Below the pieces are notes generated by a model that was given only the letters and a program-made list of their open reading frames with translations, was not told the DNA's origin and searched no databases. The translations under genes were made by a program, and so were the position numbers. Positions 1 through 40,428 of a stretch of 40,563 bases of DNA are shown here, one piece after another. Source of the stretch: Microvirga lupini (lineage in GTDB: Bacteria > Pseudomonadota > Alphaproteobacteria > Rhizobiales > Beijerinckiaceae); the NCBI GenBank assembly GCA_000517005.1, contig KI911970.1:21733-62295 (forward strand), written 5' to 3'. Position 1 is the stretch's first letter. Each line of letters begins with the position of its first letter.

Positions 1-291
1 AGGGCAGGGGTGATCCCCTCGAAAGGGTCTCGTTAGCCTCTCCCTCCACCTAACCACCTCACGCCAAACGCCTTTTCTGCAAGGGCTTCCGAAGTTTCCA
101 AGGGGTCTCGTTTAGTGAACCCTAGGTCACTTCTGGGCGCCCTAGAGGGGAGGGCGTTTGACAAACAGTCCAGCCATTCGAACCCTCTAAAAACAAAATC
201 CCCCTTTTTGTGACTTTCCAAAGCGTCACCTTGCAGAGTGGGAATAAGACCCCCCGCCCCCGTTCAGATATATCTCTAGGAGTTGCCACCG
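1..291. other. Non-coding leader region before the RNA polymerase gene
   Basis: No credible gene is seen here. The stretch holds two copies of GGGTCTCGTT (near 25 and 101), one copy of the 28-bp repeat element (210-237), a C-rich run after ATAAGAC, and a Shine-Dalgarno AGGAG at 278-282 before the polymerase ATG. If the genome is circular in this assembly, the stretch continues the GTGAC/GTCAC-rich sequence at the right end of the window, making about 425 bp between the RTX gene and the polymerase gene. A TTGACA at 158-163 has no convincing -10 partner. Confidence 0.7.
210..237 (+). promoter_or_regulatory. 28-bp repeat element, copy 1; candidate phage RNA polymerase promoter
   Basis: First of six copies with the same layout: GTGAC (or GGCAC), a variable middle, then GGCACCTTGCAGA, with the two constant parts always 16 bp apart. 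Here the right part reads TCACCTTGCAGA. It lies 54 bp before the polymerase ATG. Copies at gene-block borders in a phage carrying its own single-subunit polymerase suggest a phage promoter. The middle can also fold (CTTT/AAAG), so an RNA hairpin or protein-binding role is the alternative. Confidence 0.55.
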
Positions 292-2889
292 ATGAGCACC
301 TACGAAATCACCGCCGAACTTCTCGATGCCCAGATGAAGCTCGAAGAGGAGAGCGTGAACAATGGCGTTGATGCTGCCAAGAAGAAGCACCTCGCCACCG
401 TCCAGAACGAGGAGCAGAGCAAGACCCAATACGGCATGACCATCCTGCGCCTGGCCACCGCGAAGGTCGCCGAGGCAATCCAGCAGGTGGTCGTCGAGAG
501 CAAGCTGGCTGGCCGGGGTCGCCGGGGCGCCTACATCCCGTACCTCGAAGAGATCAAGGACAAGGAAGGCAAGCCCGACTTCTTCACGACCGCTTGGCTG
601 GCCCTCTCGGCGGTCATCGACGGCCTCTCGAAGGCTCGCCCCCAGGATCAGGTAGCCGTGGACATCGGCACCCGTATCAACAACGAGGCCTGGATGCGGG
701 TCTACAAGGAGAGCAAGGCGAAGGAGTACGAGCGCACCCTGAAGACCATCAAGGAGCGCACCGACCAGCGCGGCAAGGACGTCATCGCGAAGCTCATGGC
801 CCGTCGCAACGGTGTCGACCGGGCGTGGCCCGAGACTGTCCGTGGTCAGGTGGGGCACGTCCTCATCGACCTGCTGGAGCCGATGGGTCTGTTCACCATC
901 GAGCGCCGGAACGTGTCGGCTGGCAACAACCCCAACTTCCTGATCGCCACCGAAGACTTCAACAAGCGGATGGATGCGGCCAATGCCGAGGTGTTCCTGG
1001 CGACCCCTCAGTACATGCCGACGATCATCCCTCCGAAGCCCTGGACCGCATTCGATGATGGCGGCTATTGGTCTGGTTACTTCGATCTACCCTTCGTCAT
1101 CAAGAGTGATGGCCGGGTGGTCAAGGATTACGACCTGACCAACATCTATGATGCCATCAACCTAATTCAGGAGACCCCCTGGCGGGTCAACACGGACGTC
1201 CTGACGGTACTCGATGCCTGCCTGGACGATCCCCTGAAGCGTCCCTTCAAGGGTCTCCCTGCGCTTAATAAGAAGCAGCAGCAGGAGATGCCTTCAGGTC
1301 TAACCGAGGAGGAACGAGTGAACTGGAAACGTGAACAGAGGAACGAGTGGAAGGAAGACGGACGGCAGGGTTCCAAGCGTGGGCAGATGTTCAAGGTTCG
1401 TTCCATCGCCCATAAGTTCAAGGATCACGAGCGGATCTTCTTCCCACACCGGCTGGACTATCGGGGCCGCGCATATGCCATCCCCATGTACCTCAACCCG
1501 CAAGGCGATAGCCTGACCAAGTCCCTCCTGCGCTTCGCAGACACCAAGCCGATCACCAATGAGGTTGCGGCAGGGTACCTAGCGATGCACGGGGCGAACG
1601 AGTACGGCCTCGATAAGAAACCCATGGACGAGCGCATCGCCTGGGCCTTCGACGAGATCGAGAACATCCGCATGGTCGTGGCCGATCCGTTAGGGGAGGG
1701 GTTCCAGTTCTGGCAAGACGCAGACAAGCCGTGGACCTTCCTGGCCTGGGCTTATGATTGGGTGGGCTTCATGAACCAAGGCTATGGCTATGAGAGCCAC
1801 ACCGGAGTTGCGTTTGATGGGGCCTGCAATGGCATCCAGCACTACTCGGCAGCACTCCTCGATCCCGAGGGTGCCAAGCAAGTGAACCTCGTGCCGTCCA
1901 CCTCAAAGGATCACCCGGCAGACATCTACATGGCAGTCGCGAAGGCCTCCGAGCGGCTCCTCAGGGTATTGCTTTGCCTTGAGGGTCCAGCAAACGCGAC
2001 CGTTGCCTCCTTCTGTAAGGAACAGGTGACCGCCTGGGAGAAGACCAAGACGGACGAGGAGGGTAACCCCCTGCCTCCGATGGATTGGAAGCTCATGGCT
2101 GGCAAGTGGCTGCAACTCGGGGTCTCCCGCGACGTGGCCAAGCGCCCGACCATGACGACGCAGTACGGCGGCAAGGCGACGAGCCAGCGCGAGTATATCC
2201 AAGAGAAGCTGAAGGATCCCGAGGGCCTCTTCCGCATCTCCGCGAACCTCGACGGGCGCTTCCGTGCGGCCACCTTCCTCCAACCCATCATGAACCAAGC
2301 CATCGCCGACGCGGTGCCTGCGGCTCGCCGTGCCATGACCTATCTGCAGGACATGTGCCGCCTCGTTACGGCATCCGGTAAGACGCCGTTCTGGGTCACT
2401 CCTGATGGGTTCCCGGTGGCTCAGCGGTATATGATCGGTAAGGGTGTCGAGATCAAAACGACCCTCCGGGGGAAGCAGCGCGTCCTCACCCTTCGCGAAG
2501 ATACCAACAAGGTAGACCGCATGGGCCACGCTGATGGCATCGCGCCCAACTGGGTTCATAGCCTCGACGCTACGGCCCTCCGCACGACAACAATCATGGC
2601 TCATAACAACGGGGTGACCCACTTCGCGATGATCCACGACAGCTTCGGTACCCACGCGGCTGACGCTGCGACCTTACTGACGTGCACCAAGGAAGCGTTC
2701 ATCAAACTTTATACTGACAACGATCCCCTGGCGGACTTCCATGCCCGTCATATCGGTCTCATCGATCCGAAGGTGGTCGAGAAGAGCAAGAAGAAGATCA
2801 CCCCCGAGCTGCCCCAGAAAGGCGACCTTCACACTGGCGAGCTGCTGGATCTCTCCGGCATCCGCGACAGCGAATATTTTTTCGCTTAG
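292..2889 (+). CDS. Single-subunit DNA-directed RNA polymerase (T7 gp1-like)
   Basis: Phage RNA polymerase that transcribes the middle and late genes from phage-specific promoters. The product is about 865 aa, close to T7 gp1 (883 aa). Motif A contains AFDGACNGIQHYSA with catalytic D509. Motif B has K617 and Y625 with the 8-residue spacing of T7 K631/Y639. Motif C reads MIHDSFGTHAADA with D783. The C-terminus ends SEYFFA, resembling the FAFA-type end of T7 polymerase. ATG 292 is chosen because AGGAG lies 9 bp upstream; an in-frame TTG at 283 is less likely. The gene is preceded by a 28-bp repeat element and followed by an AGGGTCCA/TGGACCCT hairpin. It is placed after the early genes, as in T7. 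Confidence 0.98.
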   Translation: MSTYEITAELLDAQMKLEEESVNNGVDAAKKKHLATVQNEEQSKTQYGMTILRLATAKVAEAIQQVVVESKLAGRGRRGAYIPYLEEIKDKEGKPDFFTTAWLALSAVIDGLSKARPQDQVAVDIGTRINNEAWMRVYKESKAKEYERTLKTIKERTDQRGKDVIAKLMARRNGVDRAWPETVRGQVGHVLIDLLEPMGLFTIERRNVSAGNNPNFLIATEDFNKRMDAANAEVFLATPQYMPTIIPPKPWTAFDDGGYWSGYFDLPFVIKSDGRVVKDYDLTNIYDAINLIQETPWRVNTDVLTVLDACLDDPLKRPFKGLPALNKKQQQEMPSGLTEEERVNWKREQRNEWKEDGRQGSKRGQMFKVRSIAHKFKDHERIFFPHRLDYRGRAYAIPMYLNPQGDSLTKSLLRFADTKPITNEVAAGYLAMHGANEYGLDKKPMDERIAWAFDEIENIRMVVADPLGEGFQFWQDADKPWTFLAWAYDWVGFMNQGYGYESHTGVAFDGACNGIQHYSAALLDPEGAKQVNLVPSTSKDHPADIYMAVAKASERLLRVLLCLEGPANATVASFCKEQVTAWEKTKTDEEGNPLPPMDWKLMAGKWLQLGVSRDVAKRPTMTTQYGGKATSQREYIQEKLKDPEGLFRISANLDGRFRAATFLQPIMNQAIADAVPAARRAMTYLQDMCRLVTASGKTPFWVTPDGFPVAQRYMIGKGVEIKTTLRGKQRVLTLREDTNKVDRMGHADGIAPNWVHSLDATALRTTTIMAHNNGVTHFAMIHDSFGTHAADAATLLTCTKEAFIKLYTDNDPLADFHARHIGLIDPKVVEKSKKKITPELPQKGDLHTGELLDLSGIRDSEYFFA

Positions 2890-2932: not shown

Positions 2933-3403
2933 ATGAAGACCAAGCCTACACCCGAGCGGCTCCGCGAGCTGTTCTCCTACGACCCAGATACTGGGGCCGT
3001 CACCCGCCGTTCTACTGGAGGGACCGGTACGCTGAATGATCGTGGATACCTGTGCTTCAAAGTCGATGGGGCACTGATCCGCGCCCACCGCATCGCATGG
3101 GTACTTGCGTATGGCGCCTGGCCAGACCTCCCGGTGGACCACCGCGATATGAACAAGCAGAACAATCGCCTCGACAACTTACGCCTCGCCACGTGCTCCC
3201 AGAACAACGCTAACCGCCCCGCATTACGGAACAACAAGCTCGGGATCAAAGGTGTGGACCTCCACAAGGGGCGGTTCAGGGCAAAGATAAATGTGAACAA
3301 CAAGTTGATCCACCTCGGCTGCTTCGACACCCCCGAGGAAGCCTCCGCTGCCTATCTCGCAGCCGCCCAGAAGTACTTCGGCGAGTTCGCTCGGGCCGCC
3401 TAG
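2933..3403 (+). CDS. HNH homing-type endonuclease with AP2 DNA-binding domain
   Basis: About 156 aa. The N-terminal half carries an HNH_3-type nuclease core (RAHRIAWVLAYG, then VDHRDMNKQNNRLDNLRLAT). The C-terminal half is an AP2-like DNA-binding domain (GIKGVDLHKGRFRAKINVN, GCFDTPEEASAAYLAAA). This architecture is known from free-standing phage homing endonucleases, which nick DNA and spread into phages lacking the gene. ATG 2933 is preceded by AAAGGAAA. It sits between the polymerase and the next 28-bp repeat, a typical place for an inserted selfish gene. Biological target unknown. Confidence 0.9.
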   Translation: MKTKPTPERLRELFSYDPDTGAVTRRSTGGTGTLNDRGYLCFKVDGALIRAHRIAWVLAYGAWPDLPVDHRDMNKQNNRLDNLRLATCSQNNANRPALRNNKLGIKGVDLHKGRFRAKINVNNKLIHLGCFDTPEEASAAYLAAAQKYFGEFARAA

Positions 3404-8300: not shown

Positions 8301-9967
8301 GCCTCAAGAAACATGAGGAGGTCGAGAGTGAGTTCATTCAGCACCAACCCTGCGACAACTGCGGGTCGTCGGATGCCAACTCCCTCTACTCAGACGGCCA
8401 CCAGTTCTGCCACAAGTGCGACCACTACGTTCCACCTCCGAGAGATGGGGAAGAACGTGAAGTACCAGATCGTGCCCCCCGAGATGCTAAGTTTCTCGAA
8501 GGACGGTACGATGACCTTGAGCCCCGAGGCCTCCGAGAAGCTACCCTACGTAAGTTCGGGTACCGCATTGGTGCCCAGTACAACGGAGAGAGAGTCCACG
8601 TAGGGGATCTCTACGATACCAAGGGTGACACCCTGGTCGCTCAGCAGCTCCGGTACCGCGACAAGGACAAGGGCTTCCCCATCGTAGGCAACATCAAGCA
8701 GGCTGGCCTCTTCGGTCAGCAGGCTTGGCGTACTGGCGGCAAGATGGTCGTCATCACCGAGGGATACTTCGATGCAATGTCAGGTGCCCAGGTGCAGGAC
8801 CTCAAGTGGCCGTGGGTCTCCGTGACGAACGGGGCCAAGGCCGCGAAGAAGTCCATCGCCCGAGCAATCGAGTGGTTGCTCACATTTGAAACCATCATCC
8901 TGTTCTTTGATAACGACGAGGACGGCATAGCGGCAGCGCAGGAGTGCGCCATGCTGTTCCCTGCTGGCCGCGTCAAGATCGCCAGGATGGACGAATACAA
9001 GGATTGCAATGAAGCCCTCGTCGCAGGAGACGGGCGGAAGATCATCGATGCCGTCTGGGGAGCCCGAGCGTTCCGTCCTGACGGTGTGCTGCGGGTATCG
9101 GACGTTAAGGCCCGAGCCCTTACTGATCCTGAAATCGGATACCCATGGTTCGACGAGCGCCTCACCGCGCTCACCTATGGACGACGGGCTGGTGTCTATT
9201 GCTTTGGCGCGGGCACAGGCTGCGGTAAAACTGACTTCCTTATCCAGCAGGTCCAGTACGACGTCGACGTCCTCAACGAGAAGGTCGGTGTCTTCTTCCT
9301 TGAGCAGCCACCCGACGAAACCCTCAAGCGGGTCGCAGGGAAGTTCGCAGGGAAGTCCTTCCACGTACCGGACGGAAGCTGGACCAAGGAGGAACTCGGG
9401 AGTGCCCTTGATCGCCTTGAAGCGGACGACCGGATCCTGTTCTACGACAGCTTCGGGTCAACCGAGTGGGATACCGTAGGGGCAACCATACGGTTCCTCG
9501 CCCATAGCGAAGGCATCAAGCTCTTCTACGTCGATAACCTCACTGCGTTGGCTGCTGCTTCCCCTCTGTCTGAGAAGGAAGCGCTTGAAGAGATGATGGA
9601 GAAGATCGCCACCCTGGCCAAAGAGCTGGACGTGATCATCCATCTGGTGACCCACCTGTCCCGCCCTGAGGGTAAACCTCACGAAGAGGGTGGCCGGGTC
9701 ATGCTCCGTCATTTCAAAGGATCATCGGCCATCGGCTTCTGGGTAAACTTCGCCTTCGGGATCGAGCGTGATCAGCAGAACGAAGACCCGGTGCTCGCCA
9801 CCCTAATGACCTTCCGTATCATCAAGGATCGCCTCTCGGGGCGGTCCACAGGCAAAACGATCCACTTTGGATACGACCCTGCCGCCTCCCGCCTGATCGC
9901 CGCTGACGCCCCTCCTGAGGGCTCCAAGCACGGCTTCCAGAACCGAGAGGACGACAGTCCATTTTAA
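8297..9967 (+). CDS. Bifunctional DNA primase-helicase (T7 gp4-like)
   Basis: 556 aa from a GTG start coupled to the upstream stop; T7 gp4A has 566 aa. The N-terminal zinc-binding domain has C19, C22, C38 and C41. The TOPRIM primase part shows VITEGYFDAMSGAQ and ILFFDNDEDGIAAAQ. The RecA-like hexameric helicase part has Walker A FGAGTGCGKTDF and Walker B-type LFYVDNLTALA, then LVTHLSRPEGKPHEEGG. The C-terminus (NREDDSPF) is acidic with terminal Phe, as in T7 gp4 where it contacts the polymerase. It unwinds DNA and makes primers at the fork. Confidence 0.97.
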   Translation: MSLKKHEEVESEFIQHQPCDNCGSSDANSLYSDGHQFCHKCDHYVPPPRDGEEREVPDRAPRDAKFLEGRYDDLEPRGLREATLRKFGYRIGAQYNGERVHVGDLYDTKGDTLVAQQLRYRDKDKGFPIVGNIKQAGLFGQQAWRTGGKMVVITEGYFDAMSGAQVQDLKWPWVSVTNGAKAAKKSIARAIEWLLTFETIILFFDNDEDGIAAAQECAMLFPAGRVKIARMDEYKDCNEALVAGDGRKIIDAVWGARAFRPDGVLRVSDVKARALTDPEIGYPWFDERLTALTYGRRAGVYCFGAGTGCGKTDFLIQQVQYDVDVLNEKVGVFFLEQPPDETLKRVAGKFAGKSFHVPDGSWTKEELGSALDRLEADDRILFYDSFGSTEWDTVGATIRFLAHSEGIKLFYVDNLTALAAASPLSEKEALEEMMEKIATLAKELDVIIHLVTHLSRPEGKPHEEGGRVMLRHFKGSSAIGFWVNFAFGIERDQQNEDPVLATLMTFRIIKDRLSGRSTGKTIHFGYDPAASRLIAADAPPEGSKHGFQNREDDSPF

Positions 9968-9973
9968 CCAGAG

Positions 9974-9991
9974 GGTCCACCAAGCGGGACC
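9974..9991 (+). repeat. GGTCC/GGACC hairpin between helicase and methylase genes
   Basis: 5-bp stem GGTCC/GGACC. It is preceded by TTTAACCAGAGGGTCCA, which recurs exactly after the next gene at about 10564-10580. Likely the same element type as the hairpins at 2890 and 10572. Confidence 0.45.
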
Positions 9992-10003
9992 GAAAGGAAA
10001 TCC

Positions 10004-10567
10004 ATGAGAGTTCTAGTAGCTTGTGAATACTCCGGTCGGGTCCGTGATGCGTTCATCCGGCGAGGCCACGACGCGATGTCCTGTGATCTCCTCCCCACGG
10101 AGGTCGATGGGCCGCACTATCAGGGCTCCGTGGTGGATGTCCTGAATGATGGGTGGGATCTCATGGTCTGCCACCCACCTTGCACAGACCTGGCGGTATC
10201 GGGGGCCAGACACTTCGCGGCGAAGATCGCGGACGGACGACAACAGAGGGCGCTCGACTTTGTGTCCCTCCTGCTCGACGCCCCCATCCCCCGTATCGCC
10301 CTAGAGAACCCCATCTCGGTGATCTCCTCGAAGATCCGCAGGCCAGACCAGATCATCCACCCATGGATGTTTGGTCATGGCGAGACGAAGGCGACGTGCC
10401 TCTGGCTCAAGAACCTCCCACCGCTGGTTCCTACCGACGTTGTCGATGGGAGGTCTGACCGTATCCACAAGATGGGCCAATCCAAGAACCGCTGGAAGGA
10501 ACGCTCCCGCACATACCTCGGCATCGCGGAAGCCATAGCCGACCAGTGGGGAAGCATTTCGATTTAA
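10004..10567 (+). CDS. Phage DNA (cytosine-type) methyltransferase-like protein
   Basis: 187 aa. The N-terminal MRVLVACEYSGRVRDAF looks like the SAM-binding start. VCHPPCTDLAVSG carries a PPC motif with C60 as the probable nucleophile, and IALENP follows near residue 99. HPWMFGHGETKATCLWLKNLPPL matches the tail of short phage proteins annotated as DNA methylases. It is much shorter than standard Dcm enzymes (over 300 aa) and no target recognition domain is evident. Its specificity cannot be read, and it may be a minimal or non-canonical enzyme. It sits between hairpins in the replication region. Confidence 0.75.
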   Translation: MRVLVACEYSGRVRDAFIRRGHDAMSCDLLPTEVDGPHYQGSVVDVLNDGWDLMVCHPPCTDLAVSGARHFAAKIADGRQQRALDFVSLLLDAPIPRIALENPISVISSKIRRPDQIIHPWMFGHGETKATCLWLKNLPPLVPTDVVDGRSDRIHKMGQSKNRWKERSRTYLGIAEAIADQWGSISI

Positions 10568-13850: not shown

Positions 13851-14080
13851 TGTGGCAAGCACTCAAGCGCCATATCATCCTGGCGGCCCCCCACTGCATC
13901 CTCTGGCGGTGGGACTGGGACCGCCTCGCGTGGGTCTTCCGGCCCTACCCGAAGTGGCACATCACGAAGGCTGACTACGTCATCGAGATGTGGCGCGGCA
14001 CTCAGCGGGAGTACTTCGAGACCATCACCCGTGGCGGCACCTTCGAGGCCGCTGGGATCAACTCGGAGATCCGCTCGTGA
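13850..14080 (+). CDS. Small tryptophan-rich protein
   Basis: 76 aa with many Trp and Arg residues (LWRWDWDRLAWVFRPYPKWH). Coupled to both neighbours. No recognised domain. Confidence 0.65.
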   Translation: MWQALKRHIILAAPHCILWRWDWDRLAWVFRPYPKWHITKADYVIEMWRGTQREYFETITRGGTFEAAGINSEIRS

Positions 14081-14172
14081 TCGGTATCGAAATCGCCTGC
14101 CTGATCCTCCTTGGCGCCGCCTTTGTCCTATCCATGCTCAGCCTCTGCGCCCTCGTGTTGGGGTGGACCTGA
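14077..14172 (+). CDS. Very small membrane protein
   Basis: 31 aa from GTG 14077, overlapping the previous stop. Almost entirely one hydrophobic helix (ACLILLGAAFVLSMLSLCAL). The TGA overlaps the exonuclease ATG. Function unknown; upstream coupling of exonuclease translation is a possible role. Confidence 0.5.
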   Translation: MIGIEIACLILLGAAFVLSMLSLCALVLGWT

Positions 14173-14963
14173 TGAGCCGTACTCTCCTCATCGACGCTGA
14201 CGTGGTGGCCTACGAGGCCGCCTTCTCTAACGAGCAAGCCTTTGAGTTCGAGCCTGGCTGGTGGACATGGCAGGTGAAATGGGACGACGTGCTGGAGAGC
14301 TTCGACGCGACCGTCCAGACAATGATGGATACCCTCCAGGCGGATGACTTCAAGCTGTGCCTCACGGACAGCGAGGGGAACTTCCGCTTCGGGATCCACC
14401 GGGACTACAAGGGCGGGCGTAAGTCCGTCAGGAAGCCAATCATCCTCAAGCACTTCAAGCAGTTCCTCATCGACGAGCGTAAGGCATTCTTCAAGCCGGG
14501 TCTCGAAGGCGACGACTGCATGGGAATCCTGGCGACCCACCCCAAGCTGATCCCTGGCGAGAAGATCATCGTGTCGATTGACAAAGACATGAGGACCATC
14601 CCTGGCAAGTTCATCCGGTGGGGCACCGAGGAAGGCTGTGTGATCGAGGAGATCAGCCCGTCGCGAGCCTTCTATAATCATATGAAGCAGACCCTCACAG
14701 GCGACACAACGGACGGCTACAAGGGTCTCCCTGGGTGTGGACCTAAGAAGGCCGAAACCATCCTCAACATGGACCCGAGCGAAAGCCCCGATCTCTCACC
14801 GGAGACTGCGGGTATCGTCTGGCGTTCCGTGGTCGCTGCCTACGAGAAGGCTGGCCTCACCGAAGACGACGCTGTTGTACAGGCACGGATGGCTAAGATC
14901 CTCGACGCCAAACATTATGACTTCAAAGCACAGAGAGAGATACTATGGAATCCCCCTTCGTAA
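14172..14963 (+). CDS. 5'-3' exonuclease (T7 gp6-like, FEN family)
   Basis: 263 aa. Removes RNA primers and degrades host DNA in T7. Metal-binding acidic residues are visible in TLLIDADVVAYEAAF, LEGDDCMGILAT and IVSIDKDMRTIPGKF. The helix-hairpin-helix part reads GDTTDGYKGLPGCGPKKAET, standard for the flap/5' nuclease family. Start at ATG 14172 is coupled to the small gene before. It follows the polymerase as in T7. Confidence 0.95.
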   Translation: MSRTLLIDADVVAYEAAFSNEQAFEFEPGWWTWQVKWDDVLESFDATVQTMMDTLQADDFKLCLTDSEGNFRFGIHRDYKGGRKSVRKPIILKHFKQFLIDERKAFFKPGLEGDDCMGILATHPKLIPGEKIIVSIDKDMRTIPGKFIRWGTEEGCVIEEISPSRAFYNHMKQTLTGDTTDGYKGLPGCGPKKAETILNMDPSESPDLSPETAGIVWRSVVAAYEKAGLTEDDAVVQARMAKILDAKHYDFKAQREILWNPPS

Positions 14964-33032: not shown

Positions 33033-33077
33033 CTCTCCGTGGCCGCCTATGACCCCTTAGAACGCAAAGAAAGGAAC

Positions 33078-34760
33078 ATGACACCTACGAACCCTAATGT
33101 ACCCCCGGCTCTGCAAGATTTCCGCAACTATCTTTACATCTGCTGGCTCCACCTGAACCTGCCAGAGCCCACCGACGTTCAATTCGACCTAGCTCACTAC
33201 CTCCAACACGGTCCCAGGCGATGCATCATCGAGGCCTTCCGAGGCGTCGGTAAGAGTTGGATCACTTCGGCCTATGTCACTTGGCTCCTGCTCATGGACC
33301 CCGACCACAAGATCCTCGTGGTGTCCGCCTCCAAGGACCGTGCAGACGCCTTCTCGACCTTCACCATGCGTCTCATCAAGGAGATGCCTGTCCTGGCCCA
33401 CCTGATCCCCGGCAAGGGGCAGCGGGACAGCATGGTGGCCTTCGACGTGGGACCGGCTCGTGCCGCTCACGCCCCCTCCGTGAAGTCCGTGGGTATCACC
33501 GGGCAGCTCACCGGCTCCCGCGCCAACACGATCATCGCGGACGACATCGAGGTCCCAAACAACAGCGCCACGCAGATGATGCGGGACAAGCTCTCGGAGA
33601 CCGTGAAGGAGTTCGACGCGCTGCTGTCTCCTGGTGGTCGCGTCGTGTACCTAGGCACCCCCCAGTGTGAGATGAGCCTCTACAACGAACTCACCAACCG
33701 TGGATACGAGATGAGGGTCTGGCCTGCCCGTATCCCTGACAACAAGGCAATCGAAGGTTACGGCAGTCGTCTGGCCCCATACATCATGGACCTCATGGCC
33801 CAAGGATGGAAGGAGCGCCAACCCACCGATCCCAAGCGGTTCTCCGACATGGACCTCATCGAGCGCGAGGCATCCTATGGCCGGGGTGGCTTCGCCCTCC
33901 AGTTCATGCTGGACACCCGCCTGAGTGACGCTGATAGATACCCGCTGAAGCTCTCCGATCTGATCATAATGTCCTGCCGCTCCGACGTAGCCCCTGTAAA
34001 GCTCTCCTGGGCCTCAGGAAGCCAATACGAGCTCCAAGGGCTACCTATGGTCGGCTTCAACGGAGATCGCTTCCACGGGCCTGCATTCGTGTCTAATGAG
34101 TATGCTGAGTTCACTGGCTCCGTCATGGCTATCGACCCCTCGGGCCGAGGCACCGACGAGACCACCTATGCCGTCGTGAAGTTCCTCAACGGCCACCCCT
34201 ATCTGGCGGCGGCTGGTGGTCACATGGACGGCTACTCGGATGAGACCCTGGAGCGCCTTGCGAAGCTCGCCAAGAACCATGCAGTGAACCATGTGATCAT
34301 CGAAGCGAACTTCGGTGACGGTATGTTCACCAAGCTGATCCAGCCGGTGTTCCATAGGATCCACCGCTGCCTGATCGAGGAGGTCAAACACTCCAAGCAG
34401 AAGGAAGCCCGGATCATTGATACCCTGGAACCCGTAATGATGCGCCACAAGCTCATTGTGGATCCCCTGGTGATCAAGGAGGATCTCGCCTCTATCCAGT
34501 CCTACCCGGCAGATAAGGCCATGAACTACTCCCTGTTCTACCAGATGACCCGCATCACGAAGGACCGGGGCTCCCTGGCCAAGGATGATCGCCTGGATGC
34601 CGTGGCTATGGCCGTGGCCTACTGGACGGAGCATATGGCACGGGATGCCGACAAGGCTCACGAGCAGCACATGGAGAAGCTCCGCGAGGAGGAACTCAGG
34701 AAGTTCATGTCGAACTTCGGCAAGGACCGGAACAGGGATAACCTCTGGGTCAGGGTCTAA
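33078..34760 (+). CDS. Terminase large subunit, DNA maturase B (T7 gp19-like)
   Basis: 560 aa, against 586 in T7. ATPase-nuclease that packages DNA and cuts the termini. Walker A is EAFRGVGKSW, Walker B region IIADDIEVPNNS. The RNase H-like nuclease contains VMAIDPSGRGTDETTYAVV, IIEANFGDGMFTKLI and KDDRLDAVAMAVAYW. ATG 33078 with AAGGAA is preferred over in-frame GTG 33039. It is the last gene before the repeat-rich stretch, as gene 19 is in T7. Confidence 0.97.
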   Translation: MTPTNPNVPPALQDFRNYLYICWLHLNLPEPTDVQFDLAHYLQHGPRRCIIEAFRGVGKSWITSAYVTWLLLMDPDHKILVVSASKDRADAFSTFTMRLIKEMPVLAHLIPGKGQRDSMVAFDVGPARAAHAPSVKSVGITGQLTGSRANTIIADDIEVPNNSATQMMRDKLSETVKEFDALLSPGGRVVYLGTPQCEMSLYNELTNRGYEMRVWPARIPDNKAIEGYGSRLAPYIMDLMAQGWKERQPTDPKRFSDMDLIEREASYGRGGFALQFMLDTRLSDADRYPLKLSDLIIMSCRSDVAPVKLSWASGSQYELQGLPMVGFNGDRFHGPAFVSNEYAEFTGSVMAIDPSGRGTDETTYAVVKFLNGHPYLAAAGGHMDGYSDETLERLAKLAKNHAVNHVIIEANFGDGMFTKLIQPVFHRIHRCLIEEVKHSKQKEARIIDTLEPVMMRHKLIVDPLVIKEDLASIQSYPADKAMNYSLFYQMTRITKDRGSLAKDDRLDAVAMAVAYWTEHMARDADKAHEQHMEKLREEELRKFMSNFGKDRNRDNLWVRV

Positions 34761-34788
34761 GCTTCGGCTGAAGCCTCTAGCTGACCGT

Positions 34789-34816
34789 GGCACTTTATAT
34801 AGCGGCACCTTGCAGA
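34789..34816 (+). promoter_or_regulatory. 28-bp repeat element, copy 6, after the terminase gene
   Basis: GGCAC at 34789 and GCGGCACCTTGCAGA ending at 34816. It shares TGACCGTGGCACT at its left end with copy 5 and a downstream AATAAGACCCCC with copy 1. The position matches T7 phi-OR at the right genome end, which drives transcription used in replication or packaging. Confidence 0.55.
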
Positions 34817-34858
34817 GGGATAAAATAAGACCCCCGCTTTGTGTATATATAGGTGTAT

Positions 34859-34925
34859 CTTTAGGTATATCTTTAGGAGACTCTTTAGGTATATCTTTAG
34901 GAGACTCTTTAGGAGGCTCTTTAGG
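34859..34925 (+). repeat. Tandem CTTTAGG array, like T7 terminal short repeats
   Basis: Six perfect CTTTAGG heptamers start at 34859, 34871, 34883, 34895, 34907 and 34919, exactly 12 bp apart, joined by TATAT or AGACT/AGGCT spacers. The reverse complement CCTAAAG is the heptamer of the SRL and SRR arrays next to the terminal repeats of T7. Degenerate units follow near 35052 and at 35064-35075. Confidence 0.9.
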
Positions 34926-35165
34926 AGACCTGGGAGAGTGATGCTAGGGATGATGATGCTTATGCATCCTCCTTAGTCTCACCTCTCTAGGTCTTCGTTA
35001 GGGTGTCCTGGGTATCCTGTCTAGGCTTTGCCTATCCACTCAACCCAGGACTCTATAGGAGTTTCTCTAGGAGACCCCCTAGGTTTTGTTACAAAATTGT
35101 TAAAGCCAGTATCTAAGGCGAGAGCGGATCGCTTCCCCCCGGTACCCCTTCCTGCGTGTGCAGGC

Positions 35166-35241
35166 GGTATCGGGCGTGTGTCGTCGCGGGTGTGATACCG
35201 GGTGCATGATACCACGTGGGTGACGTCACCCGGGCGATACC
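35166..35241. repeat. GATACC iterons around a 14-bp perfect palindrome
   Basis: GATACC at 35194, 35208 and 35236 and its complement GGTATC at 35166. Between the last two forward copies lies the perfect palindrome GGGTGACGTCACCC (35218-35231). It looks like a protein-binding array. A role in packaging, origin function or repression is possible. Confidence 0.65.
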
Positions 35242-35401
35242 GTGCGTTCATTATCCGCTCAAATGGGGGTCTTGTAGAGCTCTTATCGAGGTCTTTGTGA
35301 CCATCGCCTAGGGAAACCGAGGGGATGCTGTATCCCTTTCCTGTGACGTAAGCAGTTCTTCACTGCGTTCAGAGGGTCTAGCGGGGCGTACCGTGAGCCA
35401 T

Positions 35402-35455
35402 CGCCAGGACATCGGCACGACCACGCCAGGGACACGCCAGGACACCGCCAAGGGT
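35402..35455. repeat. CGCCAGGACA-type direct repeats
   Basis: CGCCAGGACA at 35402 and 35435, CGCCAGGGACA at 35424 and CGCCAAGG at 35446: four related units in 54 bp with 11-22 bp spacing. Unknown role; possible terminase or replication-protein binding repeats. Confidence 0.6.
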
Positions 35456-35729
35456 CGGGGCTTGTCGCCGTGTTTGCCTTGTGCATCGCTGATTTATCGT
35501 TTTGCCTCACCTAGCGTCCACCTAGCGAAGCACCACAAGAGCCCTACGCAGCCTCTAGGCGAGGCTTAGGCCAAATCACACCGCAAGAGGGCCCAACGCA
35601 GTGCTGAAAGGGTCTCGCAATGAGTACCGCAAGACACCTCCAAGGCCTCTCCACGTCACAAAACTCGCCAGGAAAACCCAACGAAAACAAGCATTTATCA
35701 TTTTTTTGTTCTTTTTTGAAAATAGGGGA

Positions 35730-35758
35730 TTGACGGTCCAATACGCTGTACCCTATGT
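35730..35758 (+). promoter_or_regulatory. Host-type early promoter
   Basis: TTGACG (35730-35735), 17-bp spacer, CTATGT (35753-35758). This fits the alphaproteobacterial housekeeping pattern CTTGAC-N17-CTATAT. A T-rich run with TTTTTGAAAATA (35700-35723) lies just upstream and could act as an UP element. Transcription would begin near 35765, directly before the CACCGCA hairpin. It is the strongest host-like promoter in the window and precedes all left-end early genes. Confidence 0.65.
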
Positions 35759-35967: not shown

Positions 35968-36053
35968 GGAGAAGTTGGTCTAGGGGTGACGCTCCCCTAC
36001 TGACGAGCCTAGCGTTGCTAAACGCAACCAGAGCAGGGCGAAACCAACTCTCT
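35968..36053 (+). ncRNA. Hammerhead ribozyme 1 (type III, open at stem III)
   Basis: Stem III: AGTTGG 35973-35978 with CCAACT 36044-36049, extended by GGAG/CTCT across one bulged A. Cleavage triplet GTC 35978-35980, cut expected after 35980. Stem I: TAGGGG 35981-35986 with CCCCTA 35994-35999. Core CTGACGA 36000-36006. Stem II: GCCT/GGGC plus GC/GC and GTTGC/GCAAC (36007-36039). Core GAAA 36040-36043, whose last A pairs with T 35979. Every conserved hammerhead core position is present. The Shine-Dalgarno AGGAG of the first early gene starts right after stem III. Confidence 0.9.
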
Positions 36054-36066
36054 AGGAGAACACCTA

Positions 36067-36237
36067 ATGACACGAGAACAAGCCCTATGGGCCTCCAAGC
36101 ACGATTGGTGGCTCTGCACCATCATAGGAAGCACAGGTGAATGTGTGGTCGTCGTAAGAGACTGGGACGATGGCGGTAAGGAGATCGAGATCGGTTTCCG
36201 CGACTACCGCAAGCTCAGGGCATGGGCAGGGTACTGA
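36067..36237 (+). CDS. Small early protein, unknown function
   Basis: 56 aa: TREQALWASKHDWWLCTIIG followed by an acidic, Val-rich part and FRDYRKLRAWAGY. TAGGAG (36053-36058) lies 8 bp before ATG 36067 and next to ribozyme 1. First gene of the early region; T7 has anti-host proteins such as gp0.3 here, but no resemblance is seen. Confidence 0.7.
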   Translation: MTREQALWASKHDWWLCTIIGSTGECVVVVRDWDDGGKEIEIGFRDYRKLRAWAGY

Positions 36238-36260
36238 GTACCACGCTTTTGTGATGGTCC

Positions 36261-36284
36261 AAGGGTCCACTACGGTGGATCCTT
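36261..36284 (+). other. 10-bp AAGGGTCCAC hairpin between early genes
   Basis: AAGGGTCCAC and GTGGATCCTT pair over ten positions (one G-T) with loop TACG, in the gap between the first two early genes. Same family as the GGGTCC hairpins at 2890 and 10572; no T-run follows. Confidence 0.6.
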
Positions 36285-36350
36285 CAGCGATCACAGGATC
36301 GATAGATCCCGCAAGGATCGACACGCAACCCTCAACACTGGAGAACACCA

Positions 36351-36509
36351 ATGCTTCTCAATTCCCTCTCGATTGCCCTGTGTGTCGCTCGGCAGCATCG
36401 TTTCGGCGCAGGGCGCGGCTACACCTACCGAGCCTCGCGGAGCCCATTCCATCCCGGTTACTTTAGCGTTGTCGTCTACCGCTATGGCCAGCCCGTGACC
36501 TACCTGTGA
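36351..36509 (+). CDS. Small basic early protein, unknown function
   Basis: 52 aa from ATG 36351 with GGAG upstream. Rich in Arg, Tyr and Ser (RQHRFGAGRGYTYRASRSPF). The stop is followed after three bases by AACGGTCCACCATA, which recurs at 37242-37255, and then ribozyme 2. No family recognised. Confidence 0.6.
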   Translation: MLLNSLSIALCVARQHRFGAGRGYTYRASRSPFHPGYFSVVVYRYGQPVTYL

Positions 36510-36534
36510 CCTAACGGTCCACCATACTCAACCA

Positions 36535-36609
36535 TCAAGGCGAAACCTAGGGTCCTCTCAAGGGGGCCCGATGGTCGACCGCTAGGGGCGGTCCTGATGA
36601 GCCTACTGA
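36535..36609 (+). ncRNA. Hammerhead ribozyme 2 (type II, open at stem II)
   Basis: Stem II: AGGC 36538-36541 with GCCT 36601-36604, extended by TCA/TGA across a two-base bulge. Core GAAA 36542-36545. Stem III: CC/GG next to the core, an internal loop, GGGTCCTC with GGGGGCCC-type pairing (36550-36557 with 36562-36569) and loop TCAA. Cleavage triplet GTC 36574-36576. Stem I: GACCGC 36577-36582 with GCGGTC 36588-36593, loop TAGGG. Core CTGATGA 36594-36600. It ends 16 bp before the Shine-Dalgarno of the kinase gene. Confidence 0.88.
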
Positions 36610-36636
36610 CTGTCAGCCTTCATGTGGAGAATGACC

Positions 36637-37242
36637 ATGGAAACCTTCAAAAGCTCTAAAGCCTACATCGCTGCCCTTCGAGGTCGCGGCTTCAAGGTCA
36701 TTGGGATGGGGTTCTTCTCGATGGTCTTAGGGAAACCAGGGTGCTCCCAGGTGGTCAAGGTGTGTCGTGATAGGGACGATGTGTGGCCTCTCTATGCGGA
36801 GTGGGCCTTCCATAATCCAGGCCCGTTAGTTCCTCGGATCCTCTCGCTGAAGTGGCATGGCGAGGGTCAGGACGCATTCTTCGTGGCAGTGCTCGACCGC
36901 ATGGATGAGACGGTCCACGACCGCAGGTTCAATATGACCGTGAGACAGGATCTTCGCGACGATGCCGAACTGTTCTGCGATGCTCTGGCCCGGAACAGTA
37001 CCGGCCTCTCGCACTGCCTCAAGGCGCTTGACCGCAAGGGCTTTGGTGAGGTCGCCGATCTCCTGCGCAGGCTGCGGGAGGTCTTCCCCTACGCTTACTT
37101 CGATATCCACGCGGCCAACTGGATGTATGACGCCTCAGGCGCTCTCATCCTTACGGACCCCTTCTCTGAAGACAAGATGAAGGTCGAGCCCAAGCGCCTC
37201 AAGCATAGCCGTTCCACCGCCCCTGCCTCTCTTGCTGCCTAA
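36637..37242 (+). CDS. Protein kinase-like early protein (T7 gp0.7-like)
   Basis: About 201 aa. A Gly-rich loop region (VIGMGFFSMVLGKPG) is followed by K41 in QVVKVCRD, the likely ATP lysine. The catalytic loop is FDIHAANWM with D156 and N161, and ILTDPF carries D174 as the metal-binding aspartate. This is the layout of short podophage Ser/Thr kinases related to T7 gp0.7, which phosphorylates host RNA polymerase, RNase III and other proteins and helps host shut-off. The C-terminal part of gp0.7 that blocks transcription is absent. GGAGA lies 6 bp before ATG 36637; ATG 36631 and 36622 are alternatives. Confidence 0.8.
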   Translation: METFKSSKAYIAALRGRGFKVIGMGFFSMVLGKPGCSQVVKVCRDRDDVWPLYAEWAFHNPGPLVPRILSLKWHGEGQDAFFVAVLDRMDETVHDRRFNMTVRQDLRDDAELFCDALARNSTGLSHCLKALDRKGFGEVADLLRRLREVFPYAYFDIHAANWMYDASGALILTDPFSEDKMKVEPKRLKHSRSTAPASLAA

Positions 37243-37266
37243 ACGGTCCACCATAGGAGACCCATC

Positions 37267-37452
37267 ATGACCTTCCACATATTCCGCCGCAAGGGTCGCT
37301 GGACAGTGACCCAGGAGGCCTCTGGGCTGTCCCATGAGTGGATCACCCTGCCTGTCGTCGTGGCCTCTGGGCTGGCCTCCAAGCGTAAAGCTCAGGCACT
37401 CGCTAAGGCTCTGGGTGGACGCTCCGCAGTCATCCGCATGGAGACCGTATGA
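37267..37452 (+). CDS. Small basic early protein, unknown function
   Basis: 61 aa. FHIFRRKGRWTVTQEASG then SKRKAQALAKALGGRSAVI. AGGAG lies 7 bp before the ATG. Overlaps the next ORF by ATGA. No domain recognised, although the basic end suggests nucleic-acid contact. Confidence 0.65.
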   Translation: MTFHIFRRKGRWTVTQEASGLSHEWITLPVVVASGLASKRKAQALAKALGGRSAVIRMETV

Positions 37453-37529
37453 TGCTCCCTTATTACACCATCGCCGTGCTGAGCTTCTGTGCCGGTATCA
37501 CCCTAGCTTGGGCGGTAGTTCATAGGTAA
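37449..37529 (+). CDS. 26-residue membrane peptide
   Basis: ATGATG start overlaps the preceding TGA. Nearly all hydrophobic (TIAVLSFCAGITLAWAVVH). Too short for family assignment; supported by coupling and a clean membrane segment. Confidence 0.5.
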   Translation: MMLPYYTIAVLSFCAGITLAWAVVHR

Positions 37530-37541
37530 ACTAAACCGTTG

Positions 37542-37616
37542 TTCATGAAGGACGAAACCGCAGGGGGTGCGCTCTGCGGTCGCAGGGTTAGGCCCTGCCT
37601 GATGAGTCCACGTGGA
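37542..37616 (+). ncRNA. Hammerhead ribozyme 3 (type II, open at stem II)
   Basis: Stem II: GGAC 37550-37553 with GTCC 37606-37609, extended by TTCATG 37542-37547 with CGTGGA 37611-37616 across small bulges. Core GAAA 37554-37557. Stem III: CCGCAG 37558-37563 with CTGCGG 37574-37579, perfect. Cleavage triplet GTC 37579-37581. Stem I: GCAGGG 37582-37587 with CCCTGC 37593-37598, loop TTAGG. Core CTGATGA 37599-37605. Arrangement and stem I loop closely match ribozyme 2 although the stem sequences differ. Confidence 0.93.
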
Positions 37617-38307: not shown

Positions 38308-39348
38308 ATGGCGATTAGACAACGCGGTAATAGCTGGCAGTGGGACCGCATGTTCAACGGTGAGCGCAAGCGCGAGACGTTCGTGTCCAAGGCCATCGCC
38401 GAGCTTTGGGAAGAGGAGGTGGTCAACGCACTTACCAACTACGAGCCCTACCCCGACATCGAGGCCTTCAAGAAACGCCTCACGGCACCCAAGGAAGCCC
38501 GCCGCGACACCCTGCGGTGGTGGGCTGAGGAATGCTTCCGTAAGGTCTGGAGCCAGGGCAAGGACCAACGCAAGGTCCGCATCAACATTGACGTGATGGT
38601 CCGTTACTTCGGGGAGACCAAGCTGCTCCGCGAGGTCACCACAGACGACATCGACGAGTGGATCGAGGCGATGGAGGCGAGTGGCAACAGCAACGGAACG
38701 ATCAACCGTAAGCTGGCCGTGCTCTCCCGTATCTTCCGCCATGCTCTGGAACGTGGTGGCCTGAACAAGCGCCCCATCATCGCTCGTCGTCGCGAGACCG
38801 GCGGACGCATCCGCTGGCTGACTGAGGAGGAAGAGACCAACATCCTGGCGACCCTCCGCACATGGGGCAAGGATGACCACGCGGACGTCATAGCGGTTCT
38901 CCTCGATACCGGGATGCGTCCGTCCGAACTCTACGCCCTGACCAAGCAGGACGTGGACCTGAAGACGGGCATGCTCACCATTTGGGACAGCAAGACCGGC
39001 CAGCCTCGTTCGGTGGGCATGACGACCCGCGTCAGGGAGATCGTAGCGGCTCGCAAGGGGCCCAAGCCGTTCCCCTATGACACCGAGTGGATGCGCTACT
39101 TCTGGGACAAGGCCCGCTCCCACCTGGGGTATACTGCGGATGAACACTTCGTACCCTACATCTGCCGCCACACCTGCGCCTCTCGTCTGGCACAGCGTGG
39201 GGTCCGGTTGCAGGTGATCAAGGAATGGATGGGACACAAGACCATGGACATGACCATGCGATACGCCCACCTGTCCCCTTCGAACCTCGGCGAGGCTGTT
39301 TTAGTGCTCGAAGGGTCCAGCAAGCCGAACCATGAGGCAGGGGCATGA
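38308..39348 (+). CDS. int: Tyrosine recombinase, phage integrase
   Basis: 346 aa. Catalyses site-specific integration between attP and attB. N-terminal arm-binding region (about 1-65, basic), SAM-like core-binding domain (about 75-175), and catalytic domain with R204 in TGMRPSELYAL, R287-H288 in YICRHTCASRL, H310 in GHKTMDMT and the nucleophile Y319 in MRYAHLSP. The usual His of box II (HxxR) is Tyr here (YICR). ATG 38308 follows the winged-helix stop directly; GTG 38302 would add two residues. Integrases are known in some T7-like phages but remain uncommon. Confidence 0.95.
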   Translation: MAIRQRGNSWQWDRMFNGERKRETFVSKAIAELWEEEVVNALTNYEPYPDIEAFKKRLTAPKEARRDTLRWWAEECFRKVWSQGKDQRKVRINIDVMVRYFGETKLLREVTTDDIDEWIEAMEASGNSNGTINRKLAVLSRIFRHALERGGLNKRPIIARRRETGGRIRWLTEEEETNILATLRTWGKDDHADVIAVLLDTGMRPSELYALTKQDVDLKTGMLTIWDSKTGQPRSVGMTTRVREIVAARKGPKPFPYDTEWMRYFWDKARSHLGYTADEHFVPYICRHTCASRLAQRGVRLQVIKEWMGHKTMDMTMRYAHLSPSNLGEAVLVLEGSSKPNHEAGA

Positions 39349-39655: not shown

Positions 39656-39865
39656 ATGATTACTTGGCAGAAGCCACTTGTAGACCGGTTGTTGGACAGC
39701 GCGGACTATCACGACAACGGCGGCGTTGCGGAACTCCAGATGTCCGACGAGGGCGCTCTACTGAGAGAGGCGGCTGACGAGATTAAACGCCTGCGGGCTG
39801 CGCTCCTCAAGGAGGTTATGACCCCGGAACCTCTCTATAGGATCTATAGAAAGAAACCGGGGTGA
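39656..39865 (+). CDS. Small protein with EIKRLRAAL helix
   Basis: 69 aa from ATG 39656 (AGAGG 8 bp upstream), or 77 aa from ATG 39632, which overlaps the previous stop. Contains EGALLREAADEIKRLRAALL. Function unknown. Confidence 0.6.
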   Translation: MITWQKPLVDRLLDSADYHDNGGVAELQMSDEGALLREAADEIKRLRAALLKEVMTPEPLYRIYRKKPG

Positions 39866-39933
39866 TAACTCCAAGACCTCCTTCAGCAGATGACCAAATA
39901 GACCAACAATCCCCCCTAACCAAGGAACACCAA

Positions 39934-40428
39934 ATGAAACTGACTTTCACTGCCCCCACCGATATGGACTTCTTTGACTTCGACCTCCTCCAGGACAGCG
40001 ACACCCTGGTCGGGAGCATGAAGAACGATAGGTTACGCGGCGAGGCCGGGGACGATGCCCTCTATGGACGCGCTGGCAGGGACGTCCTGCTTGGCGGCGA
40101 GGGAGCTGATCGCTTCGTCTTCAAGTCCACCCTGGATAGCTACGCGTTCTCCAACACGACCAAGATGGATGTCATCCTGGACTTCAACCGGGGCCAGGGC
40201 GACAAGCTCGACCTCTTCGGGATCGACGCAGTCAAGGGCCGTGCAGGTAACCAAGCGTTCTCCTATATCGGCACCAAGGACTTCACCGGGAAGGCCGGTC
40301 AGGTCGCCTGGGAGAAGGCCAAGGGTGGTGTCTACGTGGGCGCTGATACCGATGGCGACGAGATACCTGACTTCATGGTTTTCCTGAAGGGCGTCGCCTC
40401 GCTGACCAAGGGTGACTTCTACCTCTAA
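39934..40428 (+). CDS. Small RTX-type calcium-binding protein with serralysin-like C-terminal domain
   Basis: 164 aa. Residues 30-63 contain three to four glycine-rich nonapeptide units: NDRLRGEAG, DDALYGRAG, RDVLLGGEG, ADRFVF. After them come VILDFNRGQGDKLDLFGIDA and DTDGDEIPDFMVFLKGV with TKGDFYL at the end. This is the pattern of the peptidase M10 C-terminal / type I secretion domain of RTX exoproteins, with Ca2+ bound by the repeats. No protease domain is attached. It may be secreted through a host type I system from a lysogen. AAGGA precedes ATG 39934. Position between integrase and RNA polymerase suggests an acquired cargo gene. Confidence 0.8.
   Translation: MKLTFTAPTDMDFFDFDLLQDSDTLVGSMKNDRLRGEAGDDALYGRAGRDVLLGGEGADRFVFKSTLDSYAFSNTTKMDVILDFNRGQGDKLDLFGIDAVKGRAGNQAFSYIGTKDFTGKAGQVAWEKAKGGVYVGADTDGDEIPDFMVFLKGVASLTKGDFYL

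Follow-up and report, generated by a model that had tools for sequence, protein, structure and literature searches.

Why would a bacteriophage carry three predicted self-cleaving ribozymes in a row, and of more than one topology? The question is raised by a stretch of 40,563 nt from Microvirga lupini (assembly GCA_000517005.1, contig KI911970.1, positions 21,733 to 62,295 of the forward strand), here called the window, which holds the genes of a temperate T7-like phage and three hammerhead motifs between its terminase and integrase genes. Cleavage by a hammerhead leaves a 5'-OH on the downstream RNA and a 2',3'-cyclic phosphate on the upstream RNA. In phage T7, the polycistronic early transcript is cut between genes by RNase III. 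Judging from its sequence and placement, the array in the window is likely to split the early transcript in cis, giving a leader and separate early mRNAs, with the permutation of each hammerhead deciding which product is capped.

Hammerhead motifs of the window

A strict descriptor (CUGANGA, GAAA with A15.1-U16.1, a UH cleavage site and three stems, in 3 permutations and on both strands) matches the 40,563 bases exactly three times, always on the + strand. Each match has GUC at the cut and a full catalytic core (CUGANGA, GAA, A15.1-U16.1 and UH cleavage site), and the minimum free energy (MFE) structure of each is the three-stem hammerhead fold:

35973..36049, + strand: hammerhead 1, type III, preceding the first early open reading frame (ORF); predicted cleavage 35980/35981 (descriptor, MFE fold, Rfam below gathering score)
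36537..36606, + strand: hammerhead 2, type II; predicted cleavage 36576/36577 (descriptor, MFE fold, model R1 E 5.4e-6)
37549..37611, + strand: hammerhead 3, type II, the last site, upstream of the regulator and integrase genes; predicted cleavage 37581/37582 (model R1 E 2.8e-6)

The descriptor and the folds thus bear out the initial annotation, which had placed three complete + strand hammerheads of types III, II and II here, with cuts after 35980, 36576 and 37581. A looser, scored descriptor gives motifs 1, 2 and 3 scores of 46.4, 37.6 and 52.9; across 150 simulated windows (dinucleotide model, both strands) it finds a single perfect-core match of at least 30 and none of at least 37.6. The type II sites are also recognized by covariance model R1, built from 13 type II motifs of relatives with the window sequences excluded (two other type II alignments, one of 17 rows with 4 misaligned and one of 16 rows, misaligned, were discarded in favor of the 13-row alignment). 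In the window, R1 matches 37549-37611 (E 2.8e-6) and 36537-36606 (E 5.4e-6), and the third-ranked match (E 0.062) lacks the core. Over the 9.63 Mb genome, with 150 of 9208 first-look candidates scored, hammerheads 2 and 3 are the sole matches with E of at most 1. The three motifs are confirmed as real.

The motifs also carry signs of selection at the sequence level, in their stem covariation and in the loop I pairing of type II. Among the 13 sequences of model R1, 13 of 18 stem pairs have changed on both sides, a number reached in 0 of 500 shuffles. In 43 type II motifs, the complementarity of loop I to the bases after stem II is 3.97 vs 3.28 on re-pairing (0 of 1000 re-pairings as high), and for 25 type III motifs, 1 of 500 letter shuffles is as high but the re-pairing comparison is not significant. 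Hammerhead 1 can form a 6-bp pseudoknot between loop I and the bases after stem II; as scored, the complementary run between loop I and the stem II shoulder is 6 at site 1, 2 at site 2 and 1.5 at site 3.

Recurrence in relatives

Relatives were fetched mostly by terminase likeness, and 467 loci were scanned in all: 80 viral loci, 57 genome loci, four additional viral scans (up to 80 loci each), two last viral scans, 19 named phage records found via polymerase and terminase matches (in 11 of which the early part of the record alone was scanned) and a few further genome stretches. In 367 loci or records (4.83 Mb, both strands, with some overlap), the looser descriptor yields 143 perfect-core matches of at least 30. 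Every one lies on the + strand, and every one falls after the terminase and/or before the integrase, with both anchors present for 130 and one anchor in the locus for 13. The same sequence holds 3 background matches of 28-30, each with one core mismatch. The further 89 loci of the last two scans add zero hammerheads out of place, and in the first set the reverse strand and somewhat longer late-region stretches give nothing above 22.1.

After removal of redundancy, 378 loci yield 38 arrays (89 hammerheads in all), and the 89 loci scanned last add 26 arrays (50 hammerheads). The total is 64 non-redundant arrays and 139 hammerheads (54 type III, 46 type II and 39 type I), with at least two motifs in 38 arrays. 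The cultured carriers (7 of the 19 named records) are the Rhizobium phages TRX32-1, RHEph01 and RHEph21 and the pelagiphages HTVC019P, HTVC109P, HTVC121P and HTVC201P; TRX32-1 came from an induced lysogen. The predicted cuts lie after 39627 and 40387 in the TRX32-1 record (MW023914) and after 665, 2107 and 2633 in RHEph01. This recurrence, together with the gene order of the window, upholds the earlier placement of the three hammerheads between gene blocks in the early region of a T7-like phage. With this placement shared by 64 non-redundant arrays, the best reading of the array is that it cleaves the early transcript.

Searches with model R1 extend the survey. It finds no match in 28 loci lacking hammerheads. 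In 397 genomes of the order, under stricter filters and with 13 candidates scored per genome, it matches in 4, two of which are T7-like prophages; the matches outside such prophages (genomes G096 and G247) were dropped for want of the catalytic core. Four prophage stretches (L144, L146, L147 and L384) hold no hammerhead scoring at least 28. One type III motif (L130) has two alternative 5' strands, either of which leaves the type unchanged. In HTVC109P (L373), two annotated CDS starts, at 589 and 1121, fall within or immediately ahead of predicted hammerheads (cleavage after 593 and 1158), so that these starts may be misannotated.

Topology and position in the array

The types are not mixed at random within arrays: topology follows position in a preferred order, with type III first, type II between genes and type I last. 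The idea was noted from the first map, before later loci were fetched. In that sample, 8 mixed arrays give 12 concordant pairs vs 1 discordant (p 0.005); in the later-fetched loci, some of them related to the first ones, 26 mixed arrays give 65 vs 5 (p <=1e-5). Over all 64 arrays, 77 pairs agree with the III-II-I order vs 6 that disagree. The first motif of the 38 multiple arrays is type III in 27, type II in 9 and type I in 2, and the last is type I in 24, type II in 12 and type III in 2. The 26 single hammerheads, many of them on short contigs, comprise 16 of type III, 7 of type I and 3 of type II.

Because arrays share ancestry, early regions were grouped by DNA similarity. With the largest array per cluster of the 38-array set, permutation p is 3e-4, 0.005 and 0.044 at 27, 19 and 13 clusters, respectively. 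With all 64 arrays, every one of the 8 informative clusters runs in the III-II-I direction (sign p 0.004), and so do all 6 under the loosest grouping (p 0.016). These results bear on the idea that the motifs are passengers, inert or selfish and useless to the phage. Their presence is patchy, and their number and type turn over among relatives, as such passengers would; however, strand, place, order and pairing are conserved across clades, and the idea is hardly credible.

Distances to neighboring genes

The geometry of the sites was taken from the 89 hammerheads of the 38-array set with crude ORF calls, and none of the 89 lies inside a called ORF. The median distance from the cut to the next start is 71 nt for type III, 86.5 nt for type II and 396 nt for type I, and that from the previous stop to the cut is 405, 54 and 72 nt, respectively. 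Types III and I differ in these distances on cluster means (p 6e-4; 84 of 89 used, as five are without one of the two distances), and type III is closer to the downstream gene in 11 of 12 clusters. The fit to the genes is good for types III and II and clade-dependent for type I. The geometry supports topology as the choice of which cut product keeps a terminal hairpin for types III and II, and less so for type I.

The cuts can also be read differently. They might mainly insulate, keeping early lytic RNA apart from late read-through from upstream and from the regulator and integrase genes downstream, whose expression would then depend on their own promoter alone. The last hammerhead of named phages comes after the final small early ORF and ~395-615 nt ahead of the next annotated CDS (type I at 2633 and CDS at 3030 in RHEph01; 40387 and 41001 in TRX32-1; 3002 and 3397 in HTVC019P), with regulator and/or integrase following. 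In the T7-like phage LUZ100, regulator and integrase are described as co-transcribed from a separate promoter (PMC10134795). LUZ100 itself, however, is without a hammerhead by the descriptor, and insulation leaves the internal type II sites between small early genes unexplained. This alternative is quite possible, with somewhat less than an even chance.

The carrier phage and its probable early region

In the bacterial genome assembly, the window makes up a single contig of a scaffold and is flanked by 100 N on each side (G000:C39 21633-21732 and 62296-62395). The flanks taken show neither a tRNA nor a repeat of more than 13 bases that would mark an att site, the window being bounded by these N runs. 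Its genes include a T7-type RNA polymerase, primase-helicase, DNA polymerase, head-tail adaptor, capsid, tail proteins, terminase and tyrosine integrase, which is the gene set, in T7-like order, of a temperate phage of the Autographiviridae type. The three hammerheads stand between terminase and integrase and between gene blocks, and by gene order their region would be the early side of this phage. The features around them are as follows:

283..2889, + strand: T7-type single-subunit RNA polymerase (phrog_414, E 4.3e-214)
33039..34760, + strand: terminase large subunit, the last late gene and the anchor for finding relatives (phrog_38, E 7.5e-117)
35730..35758, + strand: predicted host-type early promoter, TTGACG-17-CTATGT, overlapping a palindromic operator-like repeat (sequence, pattern match)
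36067..36237, + strand: early ORF, 56 aa, no family above the cut-off
36351..36509, + strand: early ORF, 52 aa, no family found
36637..37242, + strand: T7 gp0.7-like protein kinase, 201 aa from 36637 or 206 aa from 36622 (phrog_15752, E 9.8e-16)
37267..37452, + strand: early ORF, 61 aa
37853..38305, + strand: MarR-like winged-helix regulator, start uncertain (phrog_9665, E 7.1e-12; Pfam MarR_2 below the cut-off)
38308..39348, + strand: tyrosine integrase (PF00589, E 1.1e-21; phrog_1, E 1.1e-59)

A host-type promoter upstream of the array at 35730-35758 is plausible, and the closest relative has TTGACG-17-CTATTG at the same place (L003 6752; L006 12820). After that promoter in the relative, a boxA-like sequence, TGCTCTTTGAAAA, is seen by eye at L003 6855-6867. 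A repeated, often palindromic motif near GGGTCCA-N6-TGGACCC occurs in the window at 2892, 5417, 9974, 10574, 35735, 36264, 36516, 37245 and 40455, mainly between genes and with one copy across the early promoter; its copies look like operators of a phage repressor. L006 has a different repeat (near CGTTCCCACATCTGGGAACG) at similar places.

The gp0.7-like kinase, used as a probe, finds one relative besides its own DNA (66% identical) and none in 47 other genomes of the genus. The long stretch after the terminase that is without convincing genes (34761-35715) includes 12-base tandem repeats at 34841-34930, close behind the terminase, which are perhaps the joined genome ends. On the other side of the array, a protein resembling RTX repeats and the serralysin C-terminus (39862-40428) adjoins the integrase, and its homologue in L006 lies between integrase and RNA polymerase.

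Proposed cleavage of the early transcript

Under the reading preferred here, which is cleavage with capping of selected ends, the region would be transcribed early, with a repressor controlling the host-type promoter near 35730. If cleaved after 35980, 36576 and 37581, the transcript would release a leader, a 596-nt mRNA with two small ORFs and a 1005-nt mRNA with the kinase and small ORFs. Which product holds which stem follows from the permutation. At a type III site, the whole ribozyme minus one strand of stem III would stay on the downstream RNA as a 5' cap and the upstream end would be bare, which fits a leader. A type II site would leave the stem III hairpin at the 3' end of the upstream mRNA and the stem I hairpin at the 5'-OH end of the downstream one, fitting an intergenic site. 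At a type I site, the whole ribozyme minus one strand of stem I would remain upstream as a 3' cap, as fits the last early gene, before regulator and integrase. In the window, the outcome would be a bare-ended leader and two mRNAs, of 596 and 1005 nt, each with a hairpin at both ends. In bacterial mRNA decay, terminal hairpins protect the RNA end they occupy, and the hairpin-bearing ends predicted here, among them the 5'-OH ends for which the initial annotation expected resistance to 5'-end-dependent decay, may be protected likewise. The wider proposal, that temperate T7-like phages of Alphaproteobacteria, from rhizobia to SAR11, use hammerhead permutations as position-specific RNA end-cappers, is tentative and stands at close to an even chance.

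Several results count against this reading. Rfam, whose gathering scores are thresholds set by curators and not biochemical criteria, gives 0 matches at gathering scores over the whole window. The initial annotation had looked to its hammerhead models for confirmation: RF00008 at hammerhead 1 (34.8 bits, E 5.3e-5, cut-off 48.5) and RF02276 at hammerhead 2 (22.6 bits, E 0.21, cut-off 37) stay below gathering, and hammerhead 3 has no Rfam match up to E 5, whereas the model made from relatives alone is significant at sites 2 and 3. With zero gathering matches, Rfam at that threshold alone would have discarded a real feature. Of the pairing tests, the one on the pseudoknot of the 25 type III motifs is not significant, since 73 of 1000 re-pairings reach as high a value.

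The distances of type I are also less clear than the model would have them: for distance to the next start, the comparison of types I and II gives p 0.052, a start lies at most 130 nt downstream of 6 of 21 type I sites, and type I is closer to the upstream gene in 4 of 9 clusters only (cluster means). The order has exceptions in L088 (I, II), L191 (I, III, II, I), HTVC109P (II, I, II) and, with type I ahead of type II, L461 and L471. The last site of the window itself is type II, not type I, like the last site in 12 of the 38 multiple arrays. As to the sample, loci were selected for their similarity to phages with hammerheads, only copies with a shared 60-mer were taken out, and two clusters hold 44 of the 64 arrays. 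Presence is patchy as well: in the first set, hammerheads of at least 30, 25 in number, occur in 12 of the 45 intervals between terminase and integrase (one interval being that of the window itself), and by the descriptor 12 of the 19 named records have none, including LUZ100, Pasto and Lo5R7ANS.

Comparison with known systems

As predicted here, the array resembles T7 in that a polycistronic early transcript is cut between genes. It differs from the RNase III sites of T7 in its means, which are RNA motifs acting in cis, with predicted 5'-OH and cyclic-phosphate ends and no host enzyme needed. The array might simply substitute for those sites, one of the options in the initial annotation, doing the same job with another catalyst: it occupies the location of the T7 processing region in a T7-like phage, with a gp0.7-like kinase between two of its sites. 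Yet an RNase III gene is present in the host genome, and absence of the enzyme is rejected as a reason for the array. Moreover, the descriptor finds no hammerhead in 33 of the 45 intervals in the first set or in 12 of the 19 named records. Mere substitution is therefore considered unlikely.

Hammerhead series are not new in kind, since clustered prophage hammerheads flanking genes were published in 2011, with processing into operon- or gene-length mRNAs proposed (Perreault et al., 2011; PMC3088659). The view of the initial annotation that such a series was unknown thus fails, and its interpretation as a whole is partly supported. In the same work, three tandem arrangements cleave in vitro and the triple array of Agrobacterium tumefaciens cleaves in E. 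coli as well, while no settled function was assigned to the hammerheads of bacteria and phages. According to a figure legend, tail, ardA, marR and integrase genes surround the A. tumefaciens triple (PMC3088659). The window is alike in that several hammerheads lie close together in a prophage, flanking single phage genes or short blocks near marR and integrase genes. Because a homologue of ardA (anti-restriction) adjoins the hammerheads in 5 of the 38 arrays (L155, L161, L244, L148 and L152), the A. tumefaciens prophage probably belongs to the same T7-like group. Unlike the account of 2011, in the parts of it considered, the present one names the T7-like group, the early region and the rule of type by position. 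A hammerhead variant of haloviruses HF1 and HF2 (HHphage variant) likewise lies in the early region just ahead of a gene start; unlike the window array, it is described as one site per virus, and in archaeal viruses (PMC3088659).

Ends with a 2',3'-cyclic phosphate and a 5'-OH could also serve ligation, yielding spliced or circular RNAs. The host genome has a ligase of the RtcB family, and RHEph21 (L368), a hammerhead carrier, has an annotated RNA ligase 2 at 13906-14523. Against ligation, a homologue of RNA ligase 2 is found in 1 of 38 array loci, RHEph21 itself (most loci being partial genomes), which leaves phage RNA ligases unsupported as general partners, and neither spliced nor circular products were detectable in the work of Perreault et al. 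(PMC3088659). Ligation as the purpose of the cuts is very improbable. An annotated 'tRNA splicing ligase' is present at 8855-10050 in Lo5R7ANS (L369), a phage without hammerheads.

Cleavage of the early transcript with end capping, to return to it, is set in a known family of phages. The integrase-bearing Autographiviridae TRX32-1, RHEph01, HTVC019P and LUZ100 have terminase, early genes, MarR-like regulator, integrase and RNA polymerase in the same order as the window. They differ in hammerheads, which some have and some do not (present in 7 of 19 records scanned). In LUZ100, host-type promoters have been assigned to the early genes, with regulator and integrase under a separate promoter (PMC10134795). 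The word 'ribozyme' is absent from the main text of the papers on TRX32-1 and LUZ100 (PMC10134795), and a literature search over titles and the starts of abstracts, with most subscription papers outside it, gave nothing on hammerheads in T7-like phages or on type order. Papers from that search checked for the word 'hammerhead' likewise describe none in such a phage. Neither the link of hammerhead arrays with temperate T7-like phages nor the type order was thus found in the literature searched, and both are what is new here.

Implications

The constant place and strand of the arrays and the preferred order of topologies across cultured phages lead to a concrete proposal, namely that the permutation selects the RNA end that is protected. 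Testing is possible now, as TRX32-1, obtained from an induced lysogen, and cultured pelagiphages are at hand. If true, position-specific end capping would account for the persistence in nature of three permutations of a single ribozyme.

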